Of a stretch of DNA of 64,000 bases, positions 3,242 through 60,868 are shown in pieces. Both the position numbers and the translations under genes were made by a program. Location of the stretch: positions 11,791,001-11,855,000 of the forward strand of contig CM076948.1 in the NCBI GenBank assembly GCA_039566865.1, written 5' to 3'. How positions within the stretch are numbered: position 1 is the stretch's first letter; each line of letters starts with the position of its first letter. The notes under the pieces were generated by a model that saw only the letters and a list, made by a program, of their open reading frames with translations, did no database searches and was not told where the DNA came from. This stretch comes from Aurelia coerulea. Its lineage: Eukaryota; Cnidaria; Scyphozoa; Semaeostomeae; Ulmaridae.

Positions 3242-3369
3242 AGATTTAAATCCATACAATCCATCTCGTTCCTCTTTGCACTTGTAAATAGTATCAATGT
3301 TCTGTAGAAGTTTATCAATTTTCTGTAATATTATCTTGTATCGTTTTAGTTTAGTTATTTGTGTGTATA

Positions 3370-4161
3370 CCGGGTGTCTCAGAAAAAAGTACCCCCTTTT
3401 GACTGGAAATAGGAACCAAGCAATAAGATATCATTGCTCCCCGACTTCGCAACTAAATCTAACAATGTTCAACTTAGATGCACGTACCTTGCATTTAGAA
3501 ATCGTCCACCAAACACCGGAGATACAGATTCGCAAAGTCAAAATTTACAGTGCACCCAAAACCAGAGGTTTTGAAAAAGGGCCTAGTCATGATGTGTATC
3601 GTGGACATTTTCCAAAGTACCTGTAGACTTTAAGTTTCCGTGTTTTGCTTTTGAAAAGAATAAAAGATGCATGGACATGGCCCTGATTAAACAAATACAG
3701 TAAAAATTTGGTAAGAATGATAAAGTCGTGCCACATCTCCAAAATAAGCGTGCAAGTGCTCCTTTTCCTCTTCTTTAATACAAAACACTTGGGATCGAAT
3801 GCAATGCAAGGACCGTTTCTTCAAAAGAAAAGTCACTTTAAGAACAATTGAATTAATTCAAGGTATAAATCTTTTCAAAAATAAAAAGTAAAGGTCAAAG
3901 TCGAAAATTCGTTTGCAAAATGCCTGTTTGTTGTCAAATTGTGGCTAGGCCATTTCTCAAAACCTCTGGTTTCAGGTGCACTCCAAATTTTGACCTTGGG
4001 AGCTCATATCTCCGGTGTTTGGTGATCGATTTCCAAATGCAAGGTATGTGCTTTTAAGTTGAAGACCAACAAATGTAGCCTTGAATTCAAAAAGTTCCGA
4101 AATATTATCGCTTTGTTGACTTGTTAAGTCAAAAGGGGGTACTTTTTTCTGAGACACCCGG
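3370..4161 (+). mobile_element. Foldback MITE family A, copy 1
   Basis: The ends are CCGGGTGTCTCAGAAAAAAG and its complement, flanked by TA (3368-3369 and 4162-4163). The terminal inverted repeats extend about 215 bp, so the single strand could fold on itself. The element is 792 bp and has no coding capacity. Two more copies are at 22393 (inverted) and 28502 (same orientation). TA flanks suggest mobilisation by a Tc1/mariner-type transposase not encoded here. Confidence 0.9.
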
Positions 4162-4263
4162 TAGTAAATAATAATAATATGAAACTAAACTGAGCTGAAC
4201 CAGTCAAAGTGCCGTAAATCTATATACAGGGCGTCCCCAAAAACTCCCGCGTTGTCGTTAAAA

Positions 4264-22387: not shown

Positions 22388-22392
22388 ATGTA

Positions 22393-23175
22393 CCGGGTGC
22401 CTCAAAAAAGTACCCCCTTTTGACCGAACTAGGGAACAAAACGATAAAATTTCGGGATTTTTATAGTTCATGGCTACATTTGTCCATCTTCAACTTAAAT
22501 GCACATACCTAGCACTTCAAAATCGTCCACCGAACGACGGAGATATGAGTTCACAAGATCAAAATTTGGAGTGCACCTGAAACCAGAGGTTTTGAGAAAG
22601 GGCCTAGCCATGATTTGACAACGTAAACATTTTGCCAAAGAATGATCAACTTTGAACGGGCTTTGAACTTTACTTCTTACTTTTGAAAAGAATTATACCT
22701 TGAATTGCTTCAATTGTTCTTGAAATTACTTTTCTTTTGACGAATTGGTCGGCCCTTGCAATGCGTTCCATGCCAAGTGTTTTGAAGACGAGGAAAAGGA
22801 GCGCATGCATGCTTATTTTGGAGTTGTGGCACGACTTTATCATTCTTACCACATTTTTATTACATTTGTTTAATTAGGGCCATGCCCATGCGTCTTTGAT
22901 TCTTTTCAAAAGCAAAAACTGAAAATTAGGGTTTACAGGTCCATAATGCAAATCATGACTAGGCCCTTTTCAAAACCTCTGGTTTTGGGCTACCTGTAAA
23001 TTTTGACTTCGCAAAATTGTATCTCCGGCGTTTGGTGTACAATTTTCAAATGCAAGGTATGTGCATCTAAGTTGAAGATTGATACATTTAGCTGTGAACT
23101 GAGAGAGCAATGATATCTTATCGTTTTTGTCCCCATTGCCAGTCAAAAGGGGGTACTTTTTTCTGAGACACCCGG
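22393..23175 (-). mobile_element. Foldback MITE family A, copy 2 (inverted)
   Basis: It is flanked by TA (22391-22392 and 23176-23177), with ends CCGGGTGCCTC and GAGACACCCGG. It is 783 bp long and in opposite orientation to the copies at 3370 and 28502, as shown by the order of the arm phrases. Inverted arms span about 215 bp. No coding sequence. Confidence 0.9.
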
Positions 23176-23269
23176 TATTGACTCGTAAAATAGTCGAAAC
23201 AGCAAAATATGGGGTAAAGAACTAAAAAGCCATCACATATATCTTTGTCATAAAAAGGGCACACTTACA

Positions 23270-27879: not shown

Positions 27880-29545
27880 ATCTGTTCAAGCTAGTTTGCT
27901 GCAGGCCAATATTTTGCTGCAGTCCTTAGTATTTTGCAGGCTAGGTATTTTACATTTTACCCCAAGACTGCTTGTTCGAGCTAGTTTCTTGCAGGTTTTG
28001 AATTTTTACATTTTAACCTTAACAGCCCATTCGAGCTGAATTGCTGTGGGTTTTTTAACTTTTACATTTGACCTAAAACAGCCCGTTCGAGCTGAATTGC
28101 GGCGGGTTTTTGAATTTTTTACATTTTATCTAAAACATCCCGTTCGAGCTGAATTGCTGCGGGTTTTGAATTTTTACATTTTATCTAAAACATCCCGTTC
28201 GAGCTGAATTGCTGCGGGTTTTGAATGTTTACATTTTATCTAAAACATCCCGTTCGAAATGAATTGCTGCGGGTTTTGAACTTTTTACATTTAACTAAAA
28301 CATCCCGTTCGAGCTGAATTTCTGTGGGGTTTTGAACTTTTACATTTTAACTAAAACAGCCCGTATGATCTGAATTGCTGCGGGATTTTGAAGTTTTACA
28401 TTTTACCTGAAATTGCTGCAGGTTTTGAATTTTCACATCTCACATAGAATGGCCTGTTTGAGCTGAATTGCTGCAGGTTTTGAATTTGTACATTTTACAT
28501 ACCGGTTGTCTCGGAAAACGTACCCCCTTTTGACTGGAAAGAGGAACCAAGCAATAAGATATCATTGCTCCCCGACTTCACAGCTAAATTTATCAATGTT
28601 CAACTTAGATGCACGTACCTTGCATTTAGAAATCCTCCACCAAACACCGGAGTTACAGGTTCGCAAAGTCAACATTTACAGTGCATTCAAAACCAGAGGT
28701 TTTGAAAAAGGGCCTAGTCATGATTTGTATCGTGAACATTTTCCAAAGTACCTGTAGACTTTAAGTTTCCGTGTTTTGCTTTTGAAGAGAGTAAAAGATG
28801 CATGGACTTGGCGCTGATTAAACAAATATAGTAAAAATGTGGTAAGAATGATAAAGTCGTGCCACGTCTCCAAAATAAGCGTGCATGTGCTCGTTTTCCT
28901 CTTCTTTGATACAAAACACTTGGGATCGAATGCAATGCAAGGACCATTTCCTCAAAAGAAAAGTTACTTCAAGAACAATTGAAGTAATTCAAGGTATATA
29001 TACTTTCAAAAATAGAAAATAAAGGTCAAAGTCGAAAATTCGTTTGCAAAATGCCTGTTTGTTGTCAAATTATGGCTAGGCCATTTCTCAAAACCTCTGG
29101 TTTCAGGTGCACTCCAAATTTTGACCTTGTGAATTCATATCTCTGGTGTTTGGTGGTCGATTTCCAAATGCAAGGTATGTGCATTTAAGTTGAAGACCAA
29201 CAAATGTAGCCATGAATTCAAAAAGTACCGAAATATTATCGTTTTGCTGCCTTGTTGAGTCAAAAGGGGGTACTTTTTTTAGACACCCGGTAGAATGGCC
29301 TGTTCGAGCTGAATTGCTGCAGGTTTTCAATTTTTACATTTTACCTAGAGTGGCCTGTTCGAGCTGAATTGCTGCAGGTTTTAAATTTTTTACATTTTAC
29401 ATAGAATAACCTGTTCGAGCTGAATTGCTGCAGGTTTTGAATCTTTGCATTTTACCTAGAATGGCCTGTCCGAGCTGAATTGCTGCATGTGTTGAATTTT
29501 TACATTTTACCTAAAACAGCTTGTTAAACTGCATTTTACCCCTGG
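27880..29545 (+). repeat. 55-bp satellite array interrupted by MITE copy 3
   Basis: About 15 units of roughly 52-58 bp have the core CGAGCTGAATTGCTGCGGG and a TTTACATTTTA spacer. Early units (27887, 27972) are more divergent. The array stops at 28501 and resumes at 29291 on the other side of the inserted MITE. Confidence 0.9.
28502..29290 (+). mobile_element. Foldback MITE family A, copy 3, inside the satellite
   Basis: It is 789 bp with TA at 28500-28501 and 29291-29292. Removing the element and one TA restores an uninterrupted satellite junction (TTTTACATAGAATGGCC), so TA duplication is shown directly. Sequence and orientation match copy 1. No coding sequence. Confidence 0.95.
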
Positions 29546-43449: not shown

Positions 43450-44433
43450 GCATTAATTAGATGTATGTAGGTGAAAGTTGGATCCGAGTTTAGTGAATGG
43501 ATAGGGATCAAATCAGGTGTTCCACAAGGGTCAGTACTTGGACCACTTTTTTTCAATATCTTCATTAACGATCTGCTTCTCGCAGTTAAAGAATCTGAAG
43601 TTTGTAACTTTGCAGATGACACTACGATATATACGTTTGGGAAGGATATTGAAAGTATGATACTGAACCTTGAGGAAGACCTGTGTAACACCCTTAACTG
43701 GTTCAGAGATAATCATATGGCAGCCAACCCTGCAAAATTTCAGGTTATGTTTTTAGGGCTGAGAGAGGAACCAAAATTCATCCTCGAAATTAATGACAAA
43801 ATCATCCCCCTTACAGACAAAGTTAAATTGCTAGGAGTCACTGTTGACTCTCAGTTGAAATTTGATGACCATACAAAAGCCCTCTGTCAGAAAGCGAACA
43901 GGAAAGTGAGTGCTTTTTCGCGCGTGGCTCCCTATCTGAACCACGAAAAGGGTAAGATCCTCTATAATACATTTATTATGTCTAATTTCAATTATTGCCG
44001 TTTGATCTGGATTTACCATGGGACGACATCAAACAACCCGATAGACCGTGTCCAAAAAAGAGCATTAAGAATTTTGTACAATGATTTCAATATGCCATTT
44101 GAAGTACTCCTGGAAAGAACAGATGAACGAAAAGTCCACATCAAGAATTTGCAAAAATTGATGCTTCAAATCTTTAAGTGCCTTTCAGAAGAAAATCCAT
44201 CATTTATGTGGACATTCTTTGAAAGAAACCACATAAAATATGAATTACGAACAAAGAATCTGTTGCAATTACCGAAAAGAAATGCAAACACATTCGGAGT
44301 TAATTCACTTGCATTCAAAGGCACTCTCCTATGGAACACTCTACCAGATACCATAAAAAATTCAAACTCAACAGCGATATTTAAAAACTGATCAAAGAAT
44401 GGAATGGGCAAAATTGTACATGCAAAATCTGCA
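43450..44433 (+). pseudogene. LINE RT C-terminal half, copy on plus strand
   Basis: An open frame 43471-44391 (306 codons) covers the RT from motif 4 on: GVPQGSVLGPLFFNIFINDL (residues 16-35), FADDTTIY (47-54, catalytic pair at 49-50), NYCRLIWIYHG in the thumb, and the C-terminal YELRTKNLLQLPKRN and LLWNTLPDTIKNSN. It is 5' truncated at 43450 (no endonuclease, no RT fingers). A second copy, about 95 percent identical at protein level by eye, lies on the minus strand at 59967-60868. The 3' untranslated region is cut at 44434 by a 7-kb transposon and resumes at 51411. Confidence 0.9.
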
Positions 44434-44434
44434 A

Positions 44435-45600
44435 TAGACCATTTGCCAACTAAGAAAAAGGGATTGAGGCGAGCGCGGCCAATTCCGACAGCCCTAGTAA
44501 CAGTCAGAAATTCGCAACCTGGTTCCTAGGGCCAGCTTCCTACGTCAGTACTGACCCTGGTACCGGGCAGGTCAAATTCGCAATTTGATTGGCTATTTGG
44601 TAACAAAGGCCTCGTTAATTATTCCAAATTCCAAAGACTTATTGCTTGGCAGAAAATCAGTCAACTTTGGGTCGCTGTCACCGGAAAACGGGACAAAAAA
44701 TTGAAAAACAGATTTTTGGTATACCTTAAAAGTCATAATGTTCCCTAGTTGATGGGGGTTTCAACCCCATCCGTCTGCGCTTGCGGGAGAAATTTGGCAT
44801 ATTTGGTCATTTTGGGGCCCATCCCTATTGATTCCCATTCAAAAATGGCCTCCATTTGATCACTATTTCAAAAACATTAGTAGCAATCATGGAGCAGAGA
44901 AGGCGCTTACAAGGGGAAAAAGACAACGGCGCGTCTGAATTTTGAGGTTTCAAGAAATTTGGCGTTCGTTATGACGTCATAAAAGGGGGTTGAAAAAAAT
45001 GTTCCGATTTTTTTACCCGAGGTTACGTTTGGAGTTGATGCTCCATGGTTACTTGACCAATTTCAAAACGGAAAAAAGTTTACAAGAGCCAACTCATCTG
45101 CAAATCTTATAACGAAATTCGGAATTGGATACCGCCTTCAGGGGCTCCGCGCGGGCGCCTTGAAAATGGGGGTAAATTTTAGCCTACCCCATTTTGCACG
45201 TTAAGTCAGAGTTGCGCTCGGAAAATGGCCTCAAAATGTCAAAATTAGACGGAAAACCACATTCTTTACACTTCATTTTCGAAGCTGCGGTGAAATTTTC
45301 GAAAAATTTCGACTTAGGCCCATTTTCCACTAAAACAAATCGTGCTTATTTTCCTATTAAATGCACTTGCTAACCCCGGATTAATGTTTAAATACCTTTA
45401 AAATGGTCGATAAGAGGACCTCAAAGTGTTTGTTTTTAGTTTTTCGAATCATCTACTGCATTATTAGCGTTAGAGCAACGGCCATTTTTCGTCACAATTC
45501 ACAGTGATCCAGAGCATGTAATAAATTGCAAAAAATGAATTTTCGAAAATTGAAAAAATACTCGACAGACTTTATGGAGGACATCCTGAGGATTAACATG
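44435..45600 (+). repeat. Left terminal inverted repeat of the 7-kb transposon
   Basis: It matches 50230-51409 in reverse, with shared landmarks such as GCACTTGCTAACCCCGGATT (about 45365) against its complement near 50860, and TGGAGGACATCCTGAGGATT (45574) against AATCCTCAGGATGTCCTC (50238). The identity is moderate, so the arms have diverged and the insertion is not very recent. Confidence 0.85.
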
Positions 45601-46479
45601 AAACAAACAGTTCGCTAAACGCTAATTCGCTAAACAATAAATTATCCAAAATACCGGATGTCTCATAGCGTTCCTTATTCTGTAGAAAATAAATCATCAA
45701 TGATATTACTACCATTATCGCAAAACTGCTTGTTATATTAGCTCCAACTGCTACAAAGCCATGGCAAAATGTACTGAGAATTGTGACATAAGGGGGGGGG
45801 GCAGACACAACAATGGCAGCCAATTAGAATGAACCAATAAGTACATGTGCATGTAAAGAGTGTCACAAATATTCATTTGATCATAAATAAGATTAACAAG
45901 AAAGAATCGAGACACTTGTGGCGTGTGACTCTTTTTAGCAGAACTGCAGAGTTCGTCTCATATTTAGGAACAAAGCTTTTATTTTTGATGCTCTTGAAAA
46001 TATCCTCAAACAATTTTCTGACAAAAAATATTTTCGCATCCAATCCGATGAATTATTCTATCCATTATGTCTGTAAACTTTATTTATGCTTTGAGAAAAC
46101 TCCAAGGAAAATTATTGGGATTTTGCTCTTTGTTTTTAGCATAAAGGAATTGATAAATTGCCTGACTAAAGTATCATCATAATCATCATAATCTTTCACC
46201 AACGATTTTGAAATAATTTTTGACAATTCATTTGAACGACTCAGAACGAAACATTTCAGAGAAGCATTCACAAGACGTTAGAGTTTAATGAAAAATTAGT
46301 CGATAAGGCTTGCAAACGCTTGCTTTTTTTGTTTTCAACTTTTAAGTCAAAGTTCCTAGTTTTGAAAAAGGATTCTTGGGTAGAGTACAAGGGACATAAC
46401 TTTGCATAGTTCTTGGATAACCCTTTAATGTATGAATCCAGCAACTAGATGGTATTAAAGACAGTCAGGGCTGTTAGAA
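45601..46479. other. Interior of the 7-kb transposon, no gene recognised
   Basis: A plus-strand frame 45847-46182 (111 codons) is rich in Leu, Ile and Lys without any known motif. A G-run lies at about 45792-45801. Confidence 0.3.
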
Positions 46480-47535
46480 CCAAAATATTGCTGAATTGTG
46501 CAAATTGTGATAGAAGCATGAAACTTGGATAGGATACACAGTTCGATATGCCGAAAAAGATAGGATGCAGACCCCTTCGAAAAATGCCCCCTAAAGCTAT
46601 TTTTAGACTGGGGTACTAGGTTCCAGGCCTTCACAGTTGTTATTATTATAACATTGCTGCAAATTGTGATGTTAGAATCAAACTTGGTAGGGATACACAG
46701 TTTGATACGCTGAAAAAGAAAGGATACAGATCCCTTCAAAAATTTGCCCCCTAAAGCTATTTTTAGACTGGGGTACTAGTTTCCAGGCCTTCACAGTTGT
46801 TGTTATAATAACATTGCTGCAAATTGTGATACTAACATGAAACTTGGTAAGGACACACAGTTTGATACACTGAAAAAGAAAGGATGCAGACCCTTTAAAA
46901 AATTGCCCCCTAATTCTATTTTTAGACTGGGGTACTAGTTTCCAGGCCTTCACAGTTGTTGTTATAATAACATTGCTGCAAAATGTGATATTAACATGAA
47001 ACTTGGTAAGGATACACAGTTTGATACACTGAAAAAGAAAGGATGCAGACCCTTTCAAAAAATTGCCCCCTGATGCTATTTTTAGACTGGGGTACTAGGT
47101 TTCAGACCTCAAGTGGTTGTTATGATAATATTGCTGCAAATTGTGATATTAGCATGAAACTTGGCAAGGATACACAGTTTCATACGCTGAAATAGATGAG
47201 ATACAGACCCTTTCGAAAAAGTTCCCCCTAATGCTATTTTTAGACTGGGGTACTAGGGTCCAGGCCTCCACAGTGGTTATTATCATAATATTGCTGCAAA
47301 TTGAAATATTATCATAGAACTTGATAATGACACCCAGTAAAATACACTGCCCTGAATTCTATTTTTAGACTGGGGTAATAGGTTCCAGGACTGGTTATTA
47401 TAACATTGCTGCAAATTGTGATCGAAACAGTTTGATAATCTAAAAATGGTGAGGTGTAGACCCCTTCAGAAAAATGTCCCCTTTTGCTACTTTTAGTATC
47501 GGGTACAAGATTCGGTGCCTCTACAATAGTTATCA
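46480..47535 (+). repeat. Tandem array of about 160-bp units, left side
   Basis: About six to seven units contain ATTGCTGCAAATTGTGAT (46653, 46813, 46973, 47131 and 47293) and TTTTTAGACTGGGGTACTAG. The period is about 160 bp. The array is repeated in inverted orientation at 49290-50062. Confidence 0.9.
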
Positions 47536-47689
47536 AGATAACTTAACAGACTCGTTTCTTATGCCATACCCAAAGGCTCCTGACCTGATAAATGCTGATA
47601 CTGTTGAATTGTCTAGCCCTAAATGTTACCAAAACAATATTTTCAGTAAGAGACTGTCATCGTAAACGGGACTGCTTTAAACACCGTGG
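47536..47689. other. Transposon interior, no gene recognised
   Basis: Unassigned short spacer between the tandem array and the SINE head. Confidence 0.3.
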
Positions 47690-47890
47690 CACAGGTGTTG
47701 TGGCGCAGTGGTGTAATCCTCTTACTTTGCAGCCAGAACAGTCAAGCAGACAGGGTTCAATACCCGGTAGTGCCCCAACACTTGAGCGTCATGACGAGGG
47801 GTCGCGGACTCGAATAGCGCTTAGTACTTCTGTGATCCCAGCGCTTGGCGCTAAAAACCGCAACTTCACCTTCACCCTCACCTTAAAACA
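47690..47890 (+). repeat. tRNA-derived SINE (pol III A and B boxes)
   Basis: TGGCGCAGTGG at 47701-47711 fits the A box of tRNA promoters, and GGTTCAATACC at 47754-47764 fits the B box, with a spacing of about 43 bp. The sequence between does not keep a full cloverleaf. A body of about 110 bp follows, and the copy ends in a CTTCACCTTCACCCTCACCT-type tail near 47883. This is the layout of a tRNA-derived SINE. No target duplication was found. Confidence 0.65.
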
Positions 47891-48089
47891 TGAAATGTGC
47901 ACTTGTTGGATACTTTCCATGCACCGTAAGGACTAAGGTTGGTCGTTGGCAATTCAGCTTGAATAATGAGATCCCGGGAATTGAATCGTCTCCTCTGCTT
48001 GATAATTGTCTCTAGAGTATTCAAGAATGTCACCGAGAACCATCCCTGCAATAATACCTAGCTTTCTGCTTTCTCGGCATTATCTGTTC

Positions 48090-48400
48090 CACGAATTCCT
48101 CGAAGACAACTGTTTGGTGCCGCTACACAGGAAAGATAAATGGGAAAAGAGCCTCAGTAGCAGCCAGATTTCCTTCGTTCAATCTTGCCAGCAATCTTTA
48201 ATCCATAAATGCAATTATGCAATTGCGAACCTTTTTGTCAAGTCCTAGAGTTTGCACTTTCGTAAGACTATCATCTGCATCTTCTTTTTCACAAAAAAGA
48301 AACACTTCAATTGCAAGTTGATTGCACTGTATCTTGCACGTGTTCTTGGTGGAGCTGAAGAGTCTCGGTCCTTGGCAAGTGGCTGTTTTTGTTGTTCCTG
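48090..48400 (-). pseudogene. Decayed zinc-finger-like coding fragment
   Basis: On the minus strand, RTRARYSAINLQLKC is followed across a T-run frameshift by FCEKEDADDSLTKVQTLGLD, then KKVRNCIIAFMD, a stop, and RLLARLNEGNLAATEA, with a YHLSCVAA-type phrase in another frame. The spacing of Cys and His and the phrase order recall a lineage-specific family in cnidarian genomes with a CxxC...KYHxxC pattern, but this is recollection and unverified. Several frame breaks show it is dead. It lies inside the 7-kb transposon, so it may be captured or be the remains of the element's own gene. Confidence 0.4.
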
Positions 48401-48545
48401 ATAGTGGTAACGATCATATATATTGGTACCACTTGTGAAATTTCATTTCTGTTGGTCCTAAACTGATTAGAAAGATTGCTGCAGCTAGTATTGCCTATTC
48501 TACTTTCATTATTCGCATAAAATTCTCCAACTGCCTAAAATTTCT

Positions 48546-48815
48546 TCAATTGATCTGCCACATTTCTGTATCCTGGTCTTTGTCGACATGCGTACTTACT
48601 TGCTTGGCACTGATTCGATGCTTCTTGACAAATGGAGCAGAGTGATTTGGTTTGGCTCCTTCCTTTTCCACTTGCACCTGTTTCAAAGCCTTCCTCCACT
48701 TCTTGTAAATATGATTTTTCATATCATACAATAGATTCTGTCCACAAACAATTGTTAAAAAATGATAGGAGAAGAGTGTTTGGGCTTTCGTTTGTTTTGA
48801 AGTGAAACCTTTCAA
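48546..48815 (-). CDS. Unidentified 89-codon open frame
   Basis: It encodes a basic peptide (LYDMKNHIYKKWRKALKQVQ and on) without a motif I recognise. It lies upstream, on the same strand, of the decayed fragment at 48090-48400, so the two may be pieces of one former gene within the 7-kb transposon. There is no independent support for expression. It could be chance. Confidence 0.25.
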   Translation of the reverse strand: MKGFTSKQTKAQTLFSYHFLTIVCGQNLLYDMKNHIYKKWRKALKQVQVEKEGAKPNHSAPFVKKHRISAKQVSTHVDKDQDTEMWQIN

Positions 48816-48842
48816 TTTTAACCCCTTACTGAAAAGGCACTA

Positions 48843-49248
48843 CAGTAAAAACCCGCACATAAGAGCCTTCACTTATTAAGAACCTACAGCCTGAAATCAC
48901 ATATTTTTGGACCCAATGGATAAGAACTATTTCAGCCTGATATCATAACAAGGTTCTTAATAAAGGGTTTCATTCATTCATTGGGAAATAAATGCAATCT
49001 GTTTGCCAATCAACCACTTTCGTGAACTTCAAAACATAACTTACAGAACTGTGATAGGCAGGACCTCCAAGGTAAGCTTTAGTTGAAATAGATAGGGCAA
49101 AGAGTGTACATAAGTTTGGCTAAGATTTAGATTCTCGTATGTCCCTCTGTTACGAAACCACACCCTGAATACTGGATGTGCCTCGTTGCATAAGAACTTA
49201 AACAGGCTGAGCTCAAAATCTTAGGTTCTTGTGTGCGGGTTTTTACTG
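48843..49248. mobile_element. 406-bp MITE (CAGTAAAAACCCGC ends)
   Basis: The left end CAGTAAAAACCCGCACATAA is mirrored by TTGTGTGCGGGTTTTTACTG at the right, with TA at 48841-48842 and 49249-49250. Internal phrases TAAGAACCT and AGGTTCTTA pair further in. It is nested in the 7-kb transposon and related to the partial copy at 23270 and, by its ends, to 18519. Confidence 0.85.
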
Positions 49249-49289
49249 TATTTGATACCCTCTTGCAAGTAATCAAGAGTACCAGAGCC

Positions 49290-50062
49290 TATATCATTAG
49301 GTGGAAAGCTTTCGAATTTCAAGCATTAGGTGGCAAATTTTCGAAGGGTCTGTATCTTATCTTTTTCAGCGTATCAAACTGTGTGTCCTTATCAAGTTTC
49401 ATGCTAATATCATAATTTGCAGCAATGTTACGATAACAACCACCGTGAAGGCCTGGAAACTAGTACCCCAGTCTTAAAATAGCATTAGGGGGAATTTTGT
49501 CGAAGGGGTCTGTATTCTATCATTTTCAGCGTATCAAACTGTGTATCCTTACCAAGTTTCATGCTAATATCATAATTTGCAGCAATGTTATTATAACAAT
49601 CACTGTGAAGGCCTGGAAACTAGTACCCCAGTCTAAAAATAGCATTAGGGGGAATTTTTTCGAAGGAGTCTGTATCCTTTCATTAGCAGCGTATCAAAAT
49701 GTGTATCCTTGCCAAGTTTCATGCTAATATCACAATTTGCAGCAATGTTATTATAACAACCACTGTAAGGCCTGGAAACTAGTACCCCAGTCTAAAAATA
49801 GCTTTATGGGGCAAATTTTCGAAGGGTCTTTATCCTATCTTTTTCAGTGTATCAAACTGTGTGTCCTTATCAAGTTTCATGCTAATATCATAATTTGCAG
49901 CAATGTTCTGATAACAACCACCGCGAAGGCCTGGAAACTAGTACCCCAGTCTAAAAATAGCATTGGGGGCATTTTTTCGAAGGGGTCTGCATCCTATCTT
50001 TTTCAGTGCATCAAAATGTGCATCCTTTCCAAGTTTCATGCTTCTATCACAATGTGCACGAT
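49290..50062 (-). repeat. Tandem array of about 158-bp units, right side
   Basis: About five units contain ATAATTTGCAGCAATGTT and CTGGAAACTAGTACCCCAGT, the reverse complement of the left array at 46480-47535. The two arrays form a second, inner inverted structure. Confidence 0.9.
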
Positions 50063-50229
50063 TTTTTCACTAACATCGGACAAAGGCAAGATGACCTTTC
50101 GACATTTTGAAATTTACGTTATTTTGACACTTGTACCGGAAATGTCAGTGTAAACAACCATATGAAATTTAGGCCAACTTCAAAAATACATTTCTCCGCA
50201 CTCAGTGGTCCGATTTTAAAACGGTTTGT

Positions 50230-51409
50230 TTTTGCTAATCCTCAGGATGTCCTCTATAAAGACTGTCGTGTATTTGTTGCATTTTCGAAAATTCATTTTT
50301 TGCAGTTTATTCCCTAATTTTCGTATTCTGGATCACTGTGCAATTTCATACTTTTTCCTCGATGTTTCCGACTTATTACATTGTATGTTATGGATCAAAA
50401 TCAGCTGACATGCAGTCGTATCTGTCGGACTCAGTTTCCATATGGAGACAAGAGAGTGTTGGTAATAAACTGTACTTGATAATTTATGCAAAACAAAATG
50501 GCGCCCAAATGGCCACTTTTGCGGCAACCGGTACCAGGGCCAACATCGATGACCTAAGGAAGACAATGGTGGGCCTGGGAACGAGGTTGAGAAATTGGAG
50601 GAATCCTCTCCACTTCAGAATATCTTATTCGATGTATTTCCCTCGATCGATTTGTAGAGTAGGGCACATAAACAAGCGATCAGCTGATTTTCACCCCTTA
50701 GTTCACATGTAATAAGTCCACAAATTGAGAGAAAATCTTGAAAAATCAACGAAAACTGGCCGATCGTCTTGGGCTGATTCTGAAGTGGATAAATCGAGAA
50801 ACTGAAAACAAACTTTTGGAGGACCTTATTTAAACCCCTTTTAAGGTATTTAATCATTAATCTGGAGTTAGCAAGTGCATTTGGTAGGAAAACGAGCACG
50901 ATCCATTTGGGAGGAAAAAGGGCCTAAGTGGAAATTTTCGGGATTTTCCCCACAGCTTTGAAAAAAGAAAGGCTCGTTATTCTGCGAATTTTAGAGATAA
51001 ATTCGAGATTAAAAGTGTTTTAGTGAAAGAATATGGTTTCCCGTCGATTTTTGACATGCCAAGGCCGTTTACCCCTCGCAAAACGGAGTTAGGGCCCAAA
51101 ATGGGGTAGGCCAAAATTTTTCCCCATTTTCGCGGCCCCCGCGCTCCGCCCCTGGGAGCAATATTGAGCCCCAAATTGCGTGATTAGACTCGCAAACAAG
51201 TCATCTCTAGTATATTTTTTCTTTTTTGAAATTGGTTGAGTAACCATCGAGCATCGGCTCCAAATGCAGCCTCGGGTCAGGAAATTGGGCCAGGTCGGGG
51301 CCGTTTACACTGTAATGCAGAGGACTCCCCGGATTTCCGACTGTTGCTAGGGCTGTCGGAATTGGCCGCGCTAGCGCCAATCCCTTTTTCTTAATTGGCA
51401 AATGGTCTA
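50230..51409 (-). repeat. Right terminal inverted repeat of the 7-kb transposon
   Basis: It mirrors 44435-45600. Open frames here (50338-50712 and 50615-50899) do not match any family and overlap the arm, so they are not called. Confidence 0.85.
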
Positions 51410-51410
51410 T

Positions 51411-51562
51411 TAAATAAGAAACTTAGGTGATAGTGAGGATCCCATATTTTTACTTTTATTAATTCGTAGTATTGTAAATAGTTGGTTTGAATTAGTGTTT
51501 TTACTATGTATTATACCAACTGTAAATAATTTGATAATAATAATAATAATAATAATAATAAA
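51411..51562 (+). pseudogene. LINE 3' end continuing 43450-44433
   Basis: TAAATAAGAAACTTAGGTGA onward matches the LINE tail on the minus strand at 58080-58200 and ends in TTTGATAATAATAATAAT. The (AAT)n at 51535-51562 is the natural 3' terminal repeat of this family. Confidence 0.85.
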
Positions 51563-58024: not shown

Positions 58025-58055
<31 letters not shown>

Positions 58056-58312
58056 GTTATTATTATTATTATTATTATCAAATTATTTACAGTTGGTATA
58101 ATACAAAGTAAAAAAACTAATTCAAACAAATTATTTACAATACTACGAATTAATAAAATAAAAATATGGGATCCTCACTATCACCTAAGTTTCTTATTTA
58201 ATTGCAGATCTTGCATGTACAATTTTGCCCATTCTATTCTTTGATCATTCTTTTAAATATCGCTGTTGAGTTTGAATTTTTTATGGTATCTGGTAGAGTG
58301 TTCCATATAACA
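57987..58312 (-). pseudogene. LINE 3' end with (AAT)n tail, minus strand
   Basis: Bases 58080-58312 on the minus strand give CACTCTACCAGATACCATAA and the last coding bases of the same family as 43450, then an intact 3' untranslated region ending in an (AAT)n tract (57987-58079, seen as ATT on the plus strand). Only the tail is present. It shows the uninterrupted sequence at which the 7-kb transposon inserted in the other copy. Confidence 0.85.
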
Positions 58313-59032
58313 CAGCACTTACCTCGAACATAGGGCTTTGACTTCGCTAAATTTATTTGACTGCGGCCTTCTTCGTGATTGACACCCAATTACAAGCTAG
58401 TAGACCCCTGCCCCTCTTTTCGATTGCTAGAAATGTGCATACGGTTTATTTTCAAAATGAAGGTCCCTCATACCTTTGTTTCAAATTCCAAAAAGTCTCA
58501 TTGCCGTATCTTTCTTCCTTCAAACAAAATACGCTTGTATCATTTCACTTTCTGTGTTTGAGGCTCTGTCTGTTCTCAAATCGATTCGAACGCATCTATG
58601 AAACCCTTCCGAAACTGTCTGGAAATGTCACCAAATGCATCAGGGGGTAAGCCAAGGGGTGAACCAAGTAGGGGACAGGGACAAAGTTTCCAGAAACAGA
58701 TCTATTCTTGATAAAACTTGACCAGCCATTTTCCTTTTGAGCATGTTTAAATGCCAAGAAACATATCTGCAGCAGTATTGGAGACAGCATGACAATTCAT
58801 GAATTAAACAATAAGAAACAAATTAAGAAACTTGCGGTACTAAAATGCGAAAAATATCATGTTAAACTGAGAAACCTTTAATACTATCGCCTGATCCAAA
58901 GTTCTCATTAGAAATAAGTGATACCTTTTAATTTAGTACAACAAAGATGACAACAACAAAAGAAGGGCCCTTAAAATCTTATTGAGGAGGTGGACAGGGT
59001 CCACGCAAAGTTTTTCTATATCAATAGAAATA
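58313..59032. other. No gene recognised
   Basis: Open frames 58357-58650 (plus) and 58596-58790 (minus) have no recognisable domain. Confidence 0.3.
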
Positions 59033-59367
59033 CACTCATTTTTTTTATAAGAAACTGCTTATAAGAAACGGTAGGCTCAATTTGTCGAAAGCTAAGAAAC
59101 AACCCGACCTGAATTGAAAAAGCTAAGAAACTTTTTGTAATTTTCAGTTTTAATTTTCCTATCACACTCAAAAAATATTTTGACATTGTACAGCTAAAGC
59201 AACTGTTTGGACATTATTTTGAGTGCGAATTATGTTATTTACTCGTTTGAGAGACTTACTAAAAATATAAGAAACACGTAAGAAACTTTTGGTAGCAAAA
59301 TGACCCAAAAACTTAAGAAACTGCCTACCAGCCGCGGACCTTAGTTTCTTATAAAAAAAAATGAGTG
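59033..59367. mobile_element. 335-bp MITE with TA flanks
   Basis: The left end CACTCATTTTTTTTATAAGA is mirrored at the right by TCTTATAAAAAAAAATGAGTG, with TA at 59031-59032 and 59368-59369. An inner pair (CACTCAAAAAATATTTTGAC with a TTATTTTGAGTG phrase) suggests a nested or duplicated inverted structure. Many TAAGAAAC phrases. No reading frame. Confidence 0.8.
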
Positions 59368-59369
59368 TA

Positions 59370-59966
59370 TCTACCTCCTACCCTGATCCTCTCATACACT
59401 CTTTCTTTATAAGAATAATATTTATGAGAATATTCAGGCTTGGATTCATCCAACTTTTAAGAATATCATAAGAATATCGCTCAGCCTCAGCTGGCATATT
59501 TGTGTCTCATTTTTCATATTTTTCAGCAGTTGCCTGCTTTGCGATGTTTGTTATAGCTGCTTAAATTTATCTGTCGTTCCACCATTTCCTCGTACTACTT
59601 TTGCCTGGAACCATATCAGATTTGAAAAAAAAACAAGAATACTTTAATACTGTTTTCAGATTTATAATGAAAATTTCTATAGCGAGGCTGGAATTAATAG
59701 CATTTTTTTAAAAAAGGAGCGAATGTAGTTTCTGTTGGAAGAGTTGTTGAAGGATGCTAGAAATACGAGGTATCGGAGGGGTCAAATGCAGACGGGTTTG
59801 AATGAGAAGAGCAATTTCAAGTGATAGGAAACGGCCTGCAAGAAAGAGTCTAGAAATGGGGTTTAGTCAACTCTGATGAAGCTCCATTTGGGTTTATTGA
59901 ATGTGCTCTTTTTTATAAGAATAATGTTCATAAAAACATTCGACTCAGAATCATCCAATTTTTAAG
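59370..59966. other. No gene recognised; 60-bp direct repeat
   Basis: The phrase TTATAAGAATAAT...TCATCCAACTTTTAAGAAT at about 59408-59465 recurs at about 59912-59968, right at the 3' border of the next LINE. It could be an old repeat. Confidence 0.4.
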
Positions 59967-60868
59967 AATGGTATCTGGTAGAGTGTTCCATAGGAGAGCG
60001 CCTTTGAATGCAAATGAATTAACTCCGAATGTGTCTGCATTTCTTTTCGGTAATTGCAACAGATTCTTTGTTCGTAATTCATATTTTATGTGTTTTCTTT
60101 CAAAGAATGTCCACATAAATGATGGATTTTCTTCTGAAAGGCACTTAAAGATTTGAAGCATCAATTTTTGCAAATTCTTAATGTGGACTTTTCGTTCATC
60201 TGTTCTTTCCAGTAGTACTTCAAATGGCATATTGAAATCATTGTGCAAAATTCTTAATGCTCTTTTTTGGACACGGTCTATCTGGTTGTTTGATGTCTTC
60301 CCATGGTACATCCAGATCAAAGGGCAATAATTGAAATTAGACATAATAAATGTAATATAGAGGATCTCACCCTTTTCTTGGTTCAGATAGGGAGCCACGC
60401 GCGAAAAAGCACTCACTTTCCTGTTCGCTTTCTGACAGAGGGCTCTTGTATGGTCATCAAATTTCAGCTGAGAGTCAACAGTGACTCCTAGCAATTTAAC
60501 TTTGTCTGTAAGGGGGATGATTTTGTCATTAATTTCGAGGATGAATTTTGGTTCCTCTCTCAGCCCTAAAAACATAACCTGAAATTTTGCAGGGTTGGCT
60601 GCCATATGATTATCTCTGAACCAGTTAAGGGTGTTACACAGGTCTTCCTCAAGGTTCAATATCACACTTTCAATATCCTTCCCAAACGTATATATCGTAG
60701 TGTCATCTGCAAAGTTACAAACTTCAGATTCTTTAACTGCGAGAAGCAGATCATTAATGAAGATATTGAAAAAAGTGGTCCAAGTACTGACCCTTGTGGA
60801 ACACCTGATTTGATCCCAAGCCATTCACTAAACTCGGATCCAACTTTCACGCGCTGTTTTCTATTATA
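59967..60868 (-). pseudogene. LINE RT C-terminal half, copy on minus strand
   Basis: This is a second copy of the element at 43450. It starts (5' side) at KQRVKVGSEFSEWLG near 60868, beside an AT-rich microsatellite. A T-run near 60770 has six T against seven in the other copy, giving a frameshift after GVPQGSVLGPLF. The frame then continues (residues from FFNIFINDL) through FADDTTIY, NYCPLIWMYHG and LLWNTLPDTI. It loses similarity at 59967, so the 3' tail is missing. About 15 amino-acid differences from the plus-strand copy in some 290 residues. Confidence 0.9.

Follow-up and report, generated by a model that had tools for sequence, protein, structure and literature searches.

Within the DNA of Aurelia coerulea analyzed here (64,000 nucleotides of contig CM076948.1, termed the window), positions 44436-51408 are occupied by a stack of four DNA transposons, each residing inside the preceding one, within the 3' tail of a long interspersed nuclear element (LINE). 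From the outside inwards, they are an element of approximately 0.89 kb (layer 1), an element of approximately 1.28 kb (layer 2), an element with CACAGTG ends (layer 3) and an element with mirrored subterminal arrays at 46463-50075 (layer 4). The nesting was resolved by comparison with empty sites and with further copies in the 574-Mb genome assembly of the host. Like the termini, the target duplications, and the layer-4 family with its arrays and its coding relative, it could be observed directly. A first-pass annotation had regarded 44435-51409 as one 7-kb foldback transposon, possibly belonging to an undescribed large family. For the block as a whole this notion had to be abandoned, but its innermost part indeed belongs to an array-ended family, which is smaller than first described, has other end positions and carries terminal inverted repeats (TIRs) of 15 bp instead of 1.15 kb. 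We are highly confident of our explanation, this judgment applying jointly to the nesting, the layer-4 family and the mechanism proposed below.

Nested insertions in a LINE tail

The first-pass annotation had set the borders by the LINE tail, which proved correct. An uninterrupted paralogous tail exists in a second copy of the host LINE, which lies on the minus strand and is 97.5% identical. The filled site (CTGCAAT/AGACC...GGTCT/ATTAAATAAG; slashes denote junctions) was compared with this empty site, CTGCAATTAAATAAG. Therefore, insertion of the outermost element duplicated AT within AATT, the left AT copy being located at 44434-44435. Layer 1 is approximately 0.89 kb long, possesses 79-bp TIRs and has its AT duplication in the setting A/AT/T. 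One uninterrupted copy was seen (L052, 860 bp), which also has AT on both sides in the A/AT/T setting. Besides, the second LINE copy (60850 to 58051) is itself interrupted by 1.66 kb (58308-59967), approximately 25 bp of LINE sequence being present on both sides.

A search with positions 44435-44700 yielded 733 candidates, 40 of which were scored. Apart from the window itself, all of them (39 matches) started at query base 73-81, close to the end of the outer TIR; in window coordinates this is 44515 or no more than 8 bp to its left. At seven loci (L002-L008) the repeat starts with CAACCTGGTTCC and ends with GGAACGAGGTTG. Its length is 1,283 bp in four of them, 1,289-1,292 bp in two and 1,447 bp in one, and exact 9-bp target duplications were identified at all seven. 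The corresponding edges in the window read AGAAATTCG and AGAAATTGG; the last nine bases of 44436-44514 represent one copy of the duplication and 50592-50600 the second one, matching at eight of nine positions. Because of the two parts found in the window and these edge duplications, layer 2 was placed at the inner edge of the left TIR of layer 1.

The seven layer-2 loci are uninterrupted at a site reading GTCACAATTTCATAC, instead of which the window contains GTCACAATT/CACAGTG...CACTGTG/CAATTTCATAC, corresponding to a duplication of 5 bp (CAATT at 45495-45499 and 50341-50345). With the left 113 bp of layer 3, 369 candidates were obtained, of which 40 were scored. The best 30 of the 369, including the window copy, were fetched and all begin with CACAGTGATCC. 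Fifteen of the 20 loci read at 6 kb disclosed an exact 5-bp duplication, one of which (CCCCC within a C run) is uninformative. The right end is present without an exact duplication in L040, L045, L052 and L056 and is absent in L059. As deduced from L040-L059 and the window, the common form of layer 3 comprises approximately 1.92 kb with TIRs of approximately 690 bp. The outermost part of the TIR is bipartite, consisting of a 14-bp block, CACAGTGATCCAGA, and a second block, with a spacer that is approximately 9 bp longer on the right side. Within this element, 46463-50075 stands in place of approximately 35-40 bp.

Ends and arrays of the innermost element

The window copy of layer 4 (3.6 kb) has an intact left terminus, AGTCAGGGCTGTTAG, while its right terminus lacks the outermost ~9 bp. 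A second copy of the insert was found on C18, whose right end is the reverse complement of AGTCAGGGCTGTTAG. This 15-mer occurs at 82 sites of the genome, the reversed control pattern at none. Neighboring sites within 12 kb formed 24 convergent pairs, 0.45-11 kb apart, and neither a divergent nor a same-direction pair; at most one convergent pair emerged from 2000 random placements. In 22 of the 23 pairs that were read at both ends, TA is present on both sides. Unlike ends (type A and type B) were likewise observed in 22 of 23 pairs, the exception being the 7,238-bp pair on C7. The 24th pair (L107), which comprises 449 bp and was read by eye, also exhibits TA and has kept array-unit sequence. 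The end of the family is T/AGTCAGGGCTGTTAG, with 15-bp TIRs and TA target duplications. Further copies, a target duplication and a coding relative (see below), which had been proposed as a check of the 7-kb unit, were thus found for 46463-50075.

Two pairs on C5 (C5:1998401 and C5:12011766) have identical flanks and are probably one insertion that was duplicated. Equal-scoring protein matches at two or three places were noticed on C23, C164 and C225. Identical flanks and equal-scoring matches of this kind reflect either segmental duplication or haplotypes that the assembly left uncollapsed.

The 160-bp arrays in opposite orientation, already reported by the first-pass annotation, were confirmed. 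Self-comparison gave 41 inverted pairs; those array pairs that rank among the longest 25 are 78-90% complementary. Mirrored arrays were seen in all five copies read at length, namely those on C4 (3,622 bp; 5.9 and 4.5 units), C5 (4,995 bp; 5.6 and 4.9 units) and C18, the coding copy and the window. Proceeding inwards from the tip, the 15-bp TIR is followed by end-specific sequence and then by the arrays. We also compared 31 units of four copies. Left-arm units of the window and C5 copies correspond by position, one unit being missing in C5, and the inner units of the C4 copy (A2-A5, B2-B4) resemble each other within the arm. The mean likeness of units within an element amounted to 88.2% in the same arm (54 comparisons) and 84.9% in opposite arms (60 comparisons). 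From these unit comparisons we concluded that units turn over within an arm and that the arms show no visible mutual conversion.

The core of layer 4 harbors a repeat of the short interspersed nuclear element (SINE) type, which the C18 copy carries in the corresponding position. Its tRNA origin was read by eye from a box A/B-like sequence; ARAGORN did not find any tRNA. The Rfam scan gave no match, and the terminus and array patterns were not detected in viral contigs. The C18 copy carries in addition two stretches with LINE-like open reading frames (ORFs), which were recognized by eye. A LINE-like ORF inside this copy (L060, 5150-6323) contains SGDVETNPGP, which we take to be a 2A-like motif.

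Table 1. Features of the nested block and its LINE host in the window
Feature	Position	Strand	Basis or remark
Host LINE, 5' part: reverse-transcriptase reading frame and start of 3' tail	43471-44435	+	RVT_1, E 2.6e-14; junction
Layer 1, left TIR, AGACCATTTGCCAA...	44436-44514		91% to 51408-51330; uninterrupted copy in L052
Layer 2, left part, CAACCTGGTTCC end	44515-45499		Genome matches; duplications
Layer 3, left part; positions ~114-777 of common form absent	45500-46462		Start in 30 loci fetched; structure
Layer 4, innermost array-ended transposon	46463-50075		Second copy on C18; terminus pairs
Left 160-bp array (5.3 units), continued by decaying units up to 47542	46495-47349	+	Self-comparison
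Dispersed SINE-type repeat in core	47693-47884	+	Further copies: L021/L050 (a single place, 87%), part of one in L045, two on C18
Decayed remnant coding for N-terminus of transposon protein (residues 19-204 of homologue)	48144-48681	-	tblastn with P0121
410-bp inverted segment resembling a miniature inverted-repeat transposable element (MITE), TACAGTAAAAACCCGCACA ends	48841-49250		C18, C4 and C5 alignments run across
Right 160-bp array (4.6 units), opposite in orientation to left array	49322-50063	-	Self-comparison
Layer 3, right part, TIR ...GGATCACTGTG	50076-50340		Boundary with layer 4 uncertain by ~6 bp
Layer 2, right part, end ...GGAACGAGGTTG	50341-50591		94-98% to 3' part of element in 7/7 loci
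Layer 1, right part and right TIR	50592-51408		Layer-2 loci; L052 copy
Rest of host LINE 3' tail; AT duplication 51409-51410	51409-51561	+	Junction compared with empty site
Paralogous uninterrupted LINE tail, empty site CTGCAATTAAATAAG	58051-58307	-	Alignment

Outside the stack, the window contains three copies of another element of approximately 0.8 kb with inverted ends of approximately 230 bp (3367-4164, 22391-23178 and 28499-29293). The last of these sits inside a tandem array (27948-28501 and 29291-29525).

A coding relative and the weighing of explanations

A coding copy of 7,238 bp (L115) was identified, which has the same TIR, TA, arrays of 161-bp units and ORFs of 470 and 809 amino acids (aa). 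Counted from the tip, the first 800 bp of its two arms are 88% alike. Out of 7991 scored sequences, 732 were homologous to its protein at E<=1e-3. Most of the 120 homologues listed are unnamed and some are designated hypothetical or uncharacterized; two take their names from a domain (AWS in one case, CXC in the other). The predicted fold of residues 550-821 of the homologue P0134 (821 aa) matched XRN, EXO1, FEN1, XPG and GEN1 with Z values up to 14.7. P0134 is thus predicted to end in a nuclease domain of the FEN1/XPG/XRN type.

According to the first-pass annotation, the window copy has no recognizable transposase. This is true as regards intact genes. Pfam gave nothing above the cut-off inside the element with the small ORFs and the decayed core of the window, and a protein search with the decayed core returned 213 candidates, none at E<=10. 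However, 48144-48681 on the minus strand is the decayed N-terminus of a transposon protein, which could be recognized only via the coding copy and P0121. It gave three collinear tblastn matches to P0121 (E 2.9e-24), while none was obtained in 50 shuffled cores. Remnants of the same N-terminus were detected in five of six non-autonomous copies searched (window, C4, C5, C18 and C7c, not the 449-bp copy L107). Within the layer-4 family, the window copy is one of the non-autonomous members and has undergone internal deletion.

The protein of the coding relative would comprise a Cys/His-containing N-terminus, a helical middle, a FEN1/XPG-type nuclease and a Cys-rich, CXC-like tail. We infer that the array units serve as binding sites for this protein, that its nuclease does the cutting in transposition, at the TIR, and that insertion takes place at TA. 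Termini and arrays would be recognized in trans, which may be the reason why the short copies retain both. Unequal exchange inside an arm would add whole units to the arrays and remove them. A large protein family (732 matches) is hereby linked to an actual mobile element whose ends, target and array structure are defined, and both transposition and the role of the nuclease become testable.

Several findings weigh against this explanation. Layer 4 of the window is without a TA duplication (its left flank is GAC), its right terminus is short by ~9 bp, and layer 3 has lost ~35-40 bp at the insertion. Because TA, terminus bases and layer-3 bases are missing, its entry was either followed by a deletion or was not a clean transposition. 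The left end of the C18 copy is also broken and abuts a CACAGTG element, and one of the 23 pairs (L077/L078) has no TA on the left. In subterminal sequence the coding copy is unlike the short ones, and its arrays diverge from theirs by ~23-30%; possibly, it serves a sister subfamily. Among the 120 homologues listed, one has a match to PF13359 (DDE_Tnp_4). Using Foldseek, no PDB match was obtained at E<=0.001, the best being GEN1 (E 0.025), and a profile search of the PDB sequences did not find a relative. A single match to a phosphoribosyltransferase in the latter search (E 0.54) was not taken as such.

TA target duplications are a mark of Tc1/mariner. Their presence in 22 of 23 pairs would also fit a Tc1/mariner-type transposase moving the array-ended family, the nuclease ORFs of the 7.2-kb copy being passengers or belonging to a sister element. 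We consider this improbable, since five of the six non-autonomous copies keep remnants of the same N-terminus and the 7.2-kb copy shares TIR, arrays and TA with them. Pfam did not reveal any transposase, Tc1/mariner included, in the four ORFs of the 7.2-kb copy to which the scan was confined, other frames and copies not having been scanned.

The inverted matches reported for the whole block are present as described. By self-comparison, 44435-44514 matched 51409-51330 (91%), 45004-45492 matched 51288-50749 (68%) and 45520-45612 matched 50311-50220 (88%). They are due to the outer TIR, to a likeness between the bodies of two different elements and to the TIR of the CACAGTG element, respectively; the 68% part results from the right body of layer 1, which resembles the reversed body of layer 2 (73-75% over ~610 bp). 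Three families thus contribute to the mosaic that looked like inverted ends of 1.15 kb. The outer TIRs, the AT duplication and the approximate mirror symmetry of the entire block would agree with one foldback transposon of 7 kb. Nevertheless, such a transposon is very unlikely and was rejected, since each layer was found as separate copies elsewhere. Positions 44515-45499 and 50341-50591 together form a distinct high-copy element, which is dispersed in the genome and flanked by 9-bp duplications in seven of seven loci; 5-bp duplications of its own likewise mark the CACAGTG element in 15 of 20 loci. The check for further copies fails for the 7-kb unit, since its outer ends belong to the ~0.86-0.89-kb element, of which one insert-free copy was seen, in L052. 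A local segmental inversion, which would also account for the mirrored arrays, is hardly conceivable and was discarded, since other sites on the chromosomes show the same mirrored arrays enclosed by the same termini and the genome contains 24 convergent terminus pairs. The nesting of four transposons demonstrates that such insertions can mimic a giant foldback element, which calls for caution in repeat annotation by self-comparison.

Comparison with described elements

For ISL2EU elements of the PHIS superfamily, PMC4482050 gives an AT duplication within A|AT|T, written here as A/AT/T. Layer 1 shares this duplication and target in two of two copies (window and L052), but no transposase gene was seen in it and the likeness rests on the target duplication. 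Autonomous ISL2EU relatives possess a THAP/DDE transposase and a YqaJ gene. Mutator-like elements, whose autonomous members encode a MULE transposase, generate target duplications of 9-11 bp, a trait that layer 2 displays (9 bp in seven of seven loci).

Duplications of 5 bp, heptamer-like ends, bipartite TIRs and unequal spacers are features of Transib/RAG-like elements, according to PMC9435367, PMC8289069 and PMC7204232. Layer 3 has 5-bp duplications, a CACAGTG end identical to the heptamer of the recombination signal sequence and a bipartite TIR with unequal spacers. It differs in being non-coding as far as read and in its TIRs of ~690 bp. Two partial matches to RAG1 (PF12940) were found in the genome (L064, C9:10807493-10807978, and L063, C9:2908979-2909785). 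One RAG1-like coding fragment lies 1.6 kb upstream of a complete layer-3 copy, which has its own TGGCA duplication and is a separate insertion. As far as read, neither of the two fragments is placed between CACAGTG ends. A connection between layer 3 and a RAG-type transposase is therefore to be regarded as a lead and not as an established result. Transib/RAG-type transposases may find a natural set of substrates in the abundant CACAGTG layer.

Among the papers listed by our literature searches, none describes the layer-4 family and none of those listed for DUF6589 mentions DUF6589; a search joining Academ, XPG, TA and array terms gave no paper. Coral CMITEs are piggyBac-linked MITEs, and the part of PMC2872659 consulted disclosed no link to this locus. 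As in Foldback, Galileo and Tetris of Drosophila, layer 4 has repeats in both ends in inverted orientation. Galileo is characterized by long, internally repetitive TIRs and a P-superfamily transposase, whereas layer 4 has 15-bp TIRs, subterminal arrays and no Pfam transposase in the four ORFs scanned.

The nuclease of AcademX is XPG-like. AcademX, comprising nuclease-encoding Academ DNA transposons with 3-4-bp target duplications (PMC10045372), is the closest described kind to layer 4. Both are DNA transposons with TIRs and a nuclease-containing protein, which in layer 4 is a predicted fold match, but layer 4 duplicates TA (2 bp) in 22 of 23 pairs and not 3-4 bp. Because of this difference in duplication length, layer 4 was not filed under AcademX. 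Tentatively, it could represent a separate superfamily of animal DNA transposons that targets TA, possesses paired mirror-image subterminal arrays and encodes a multidomain protein of ~1,400 aa (helical DUF6589-like core, FEN1/XPG-type nuclease and CXC-like tail) with hundreds of mostly unnamed or hypothetical public homologues, the nuclease possibly being part of the cutting.

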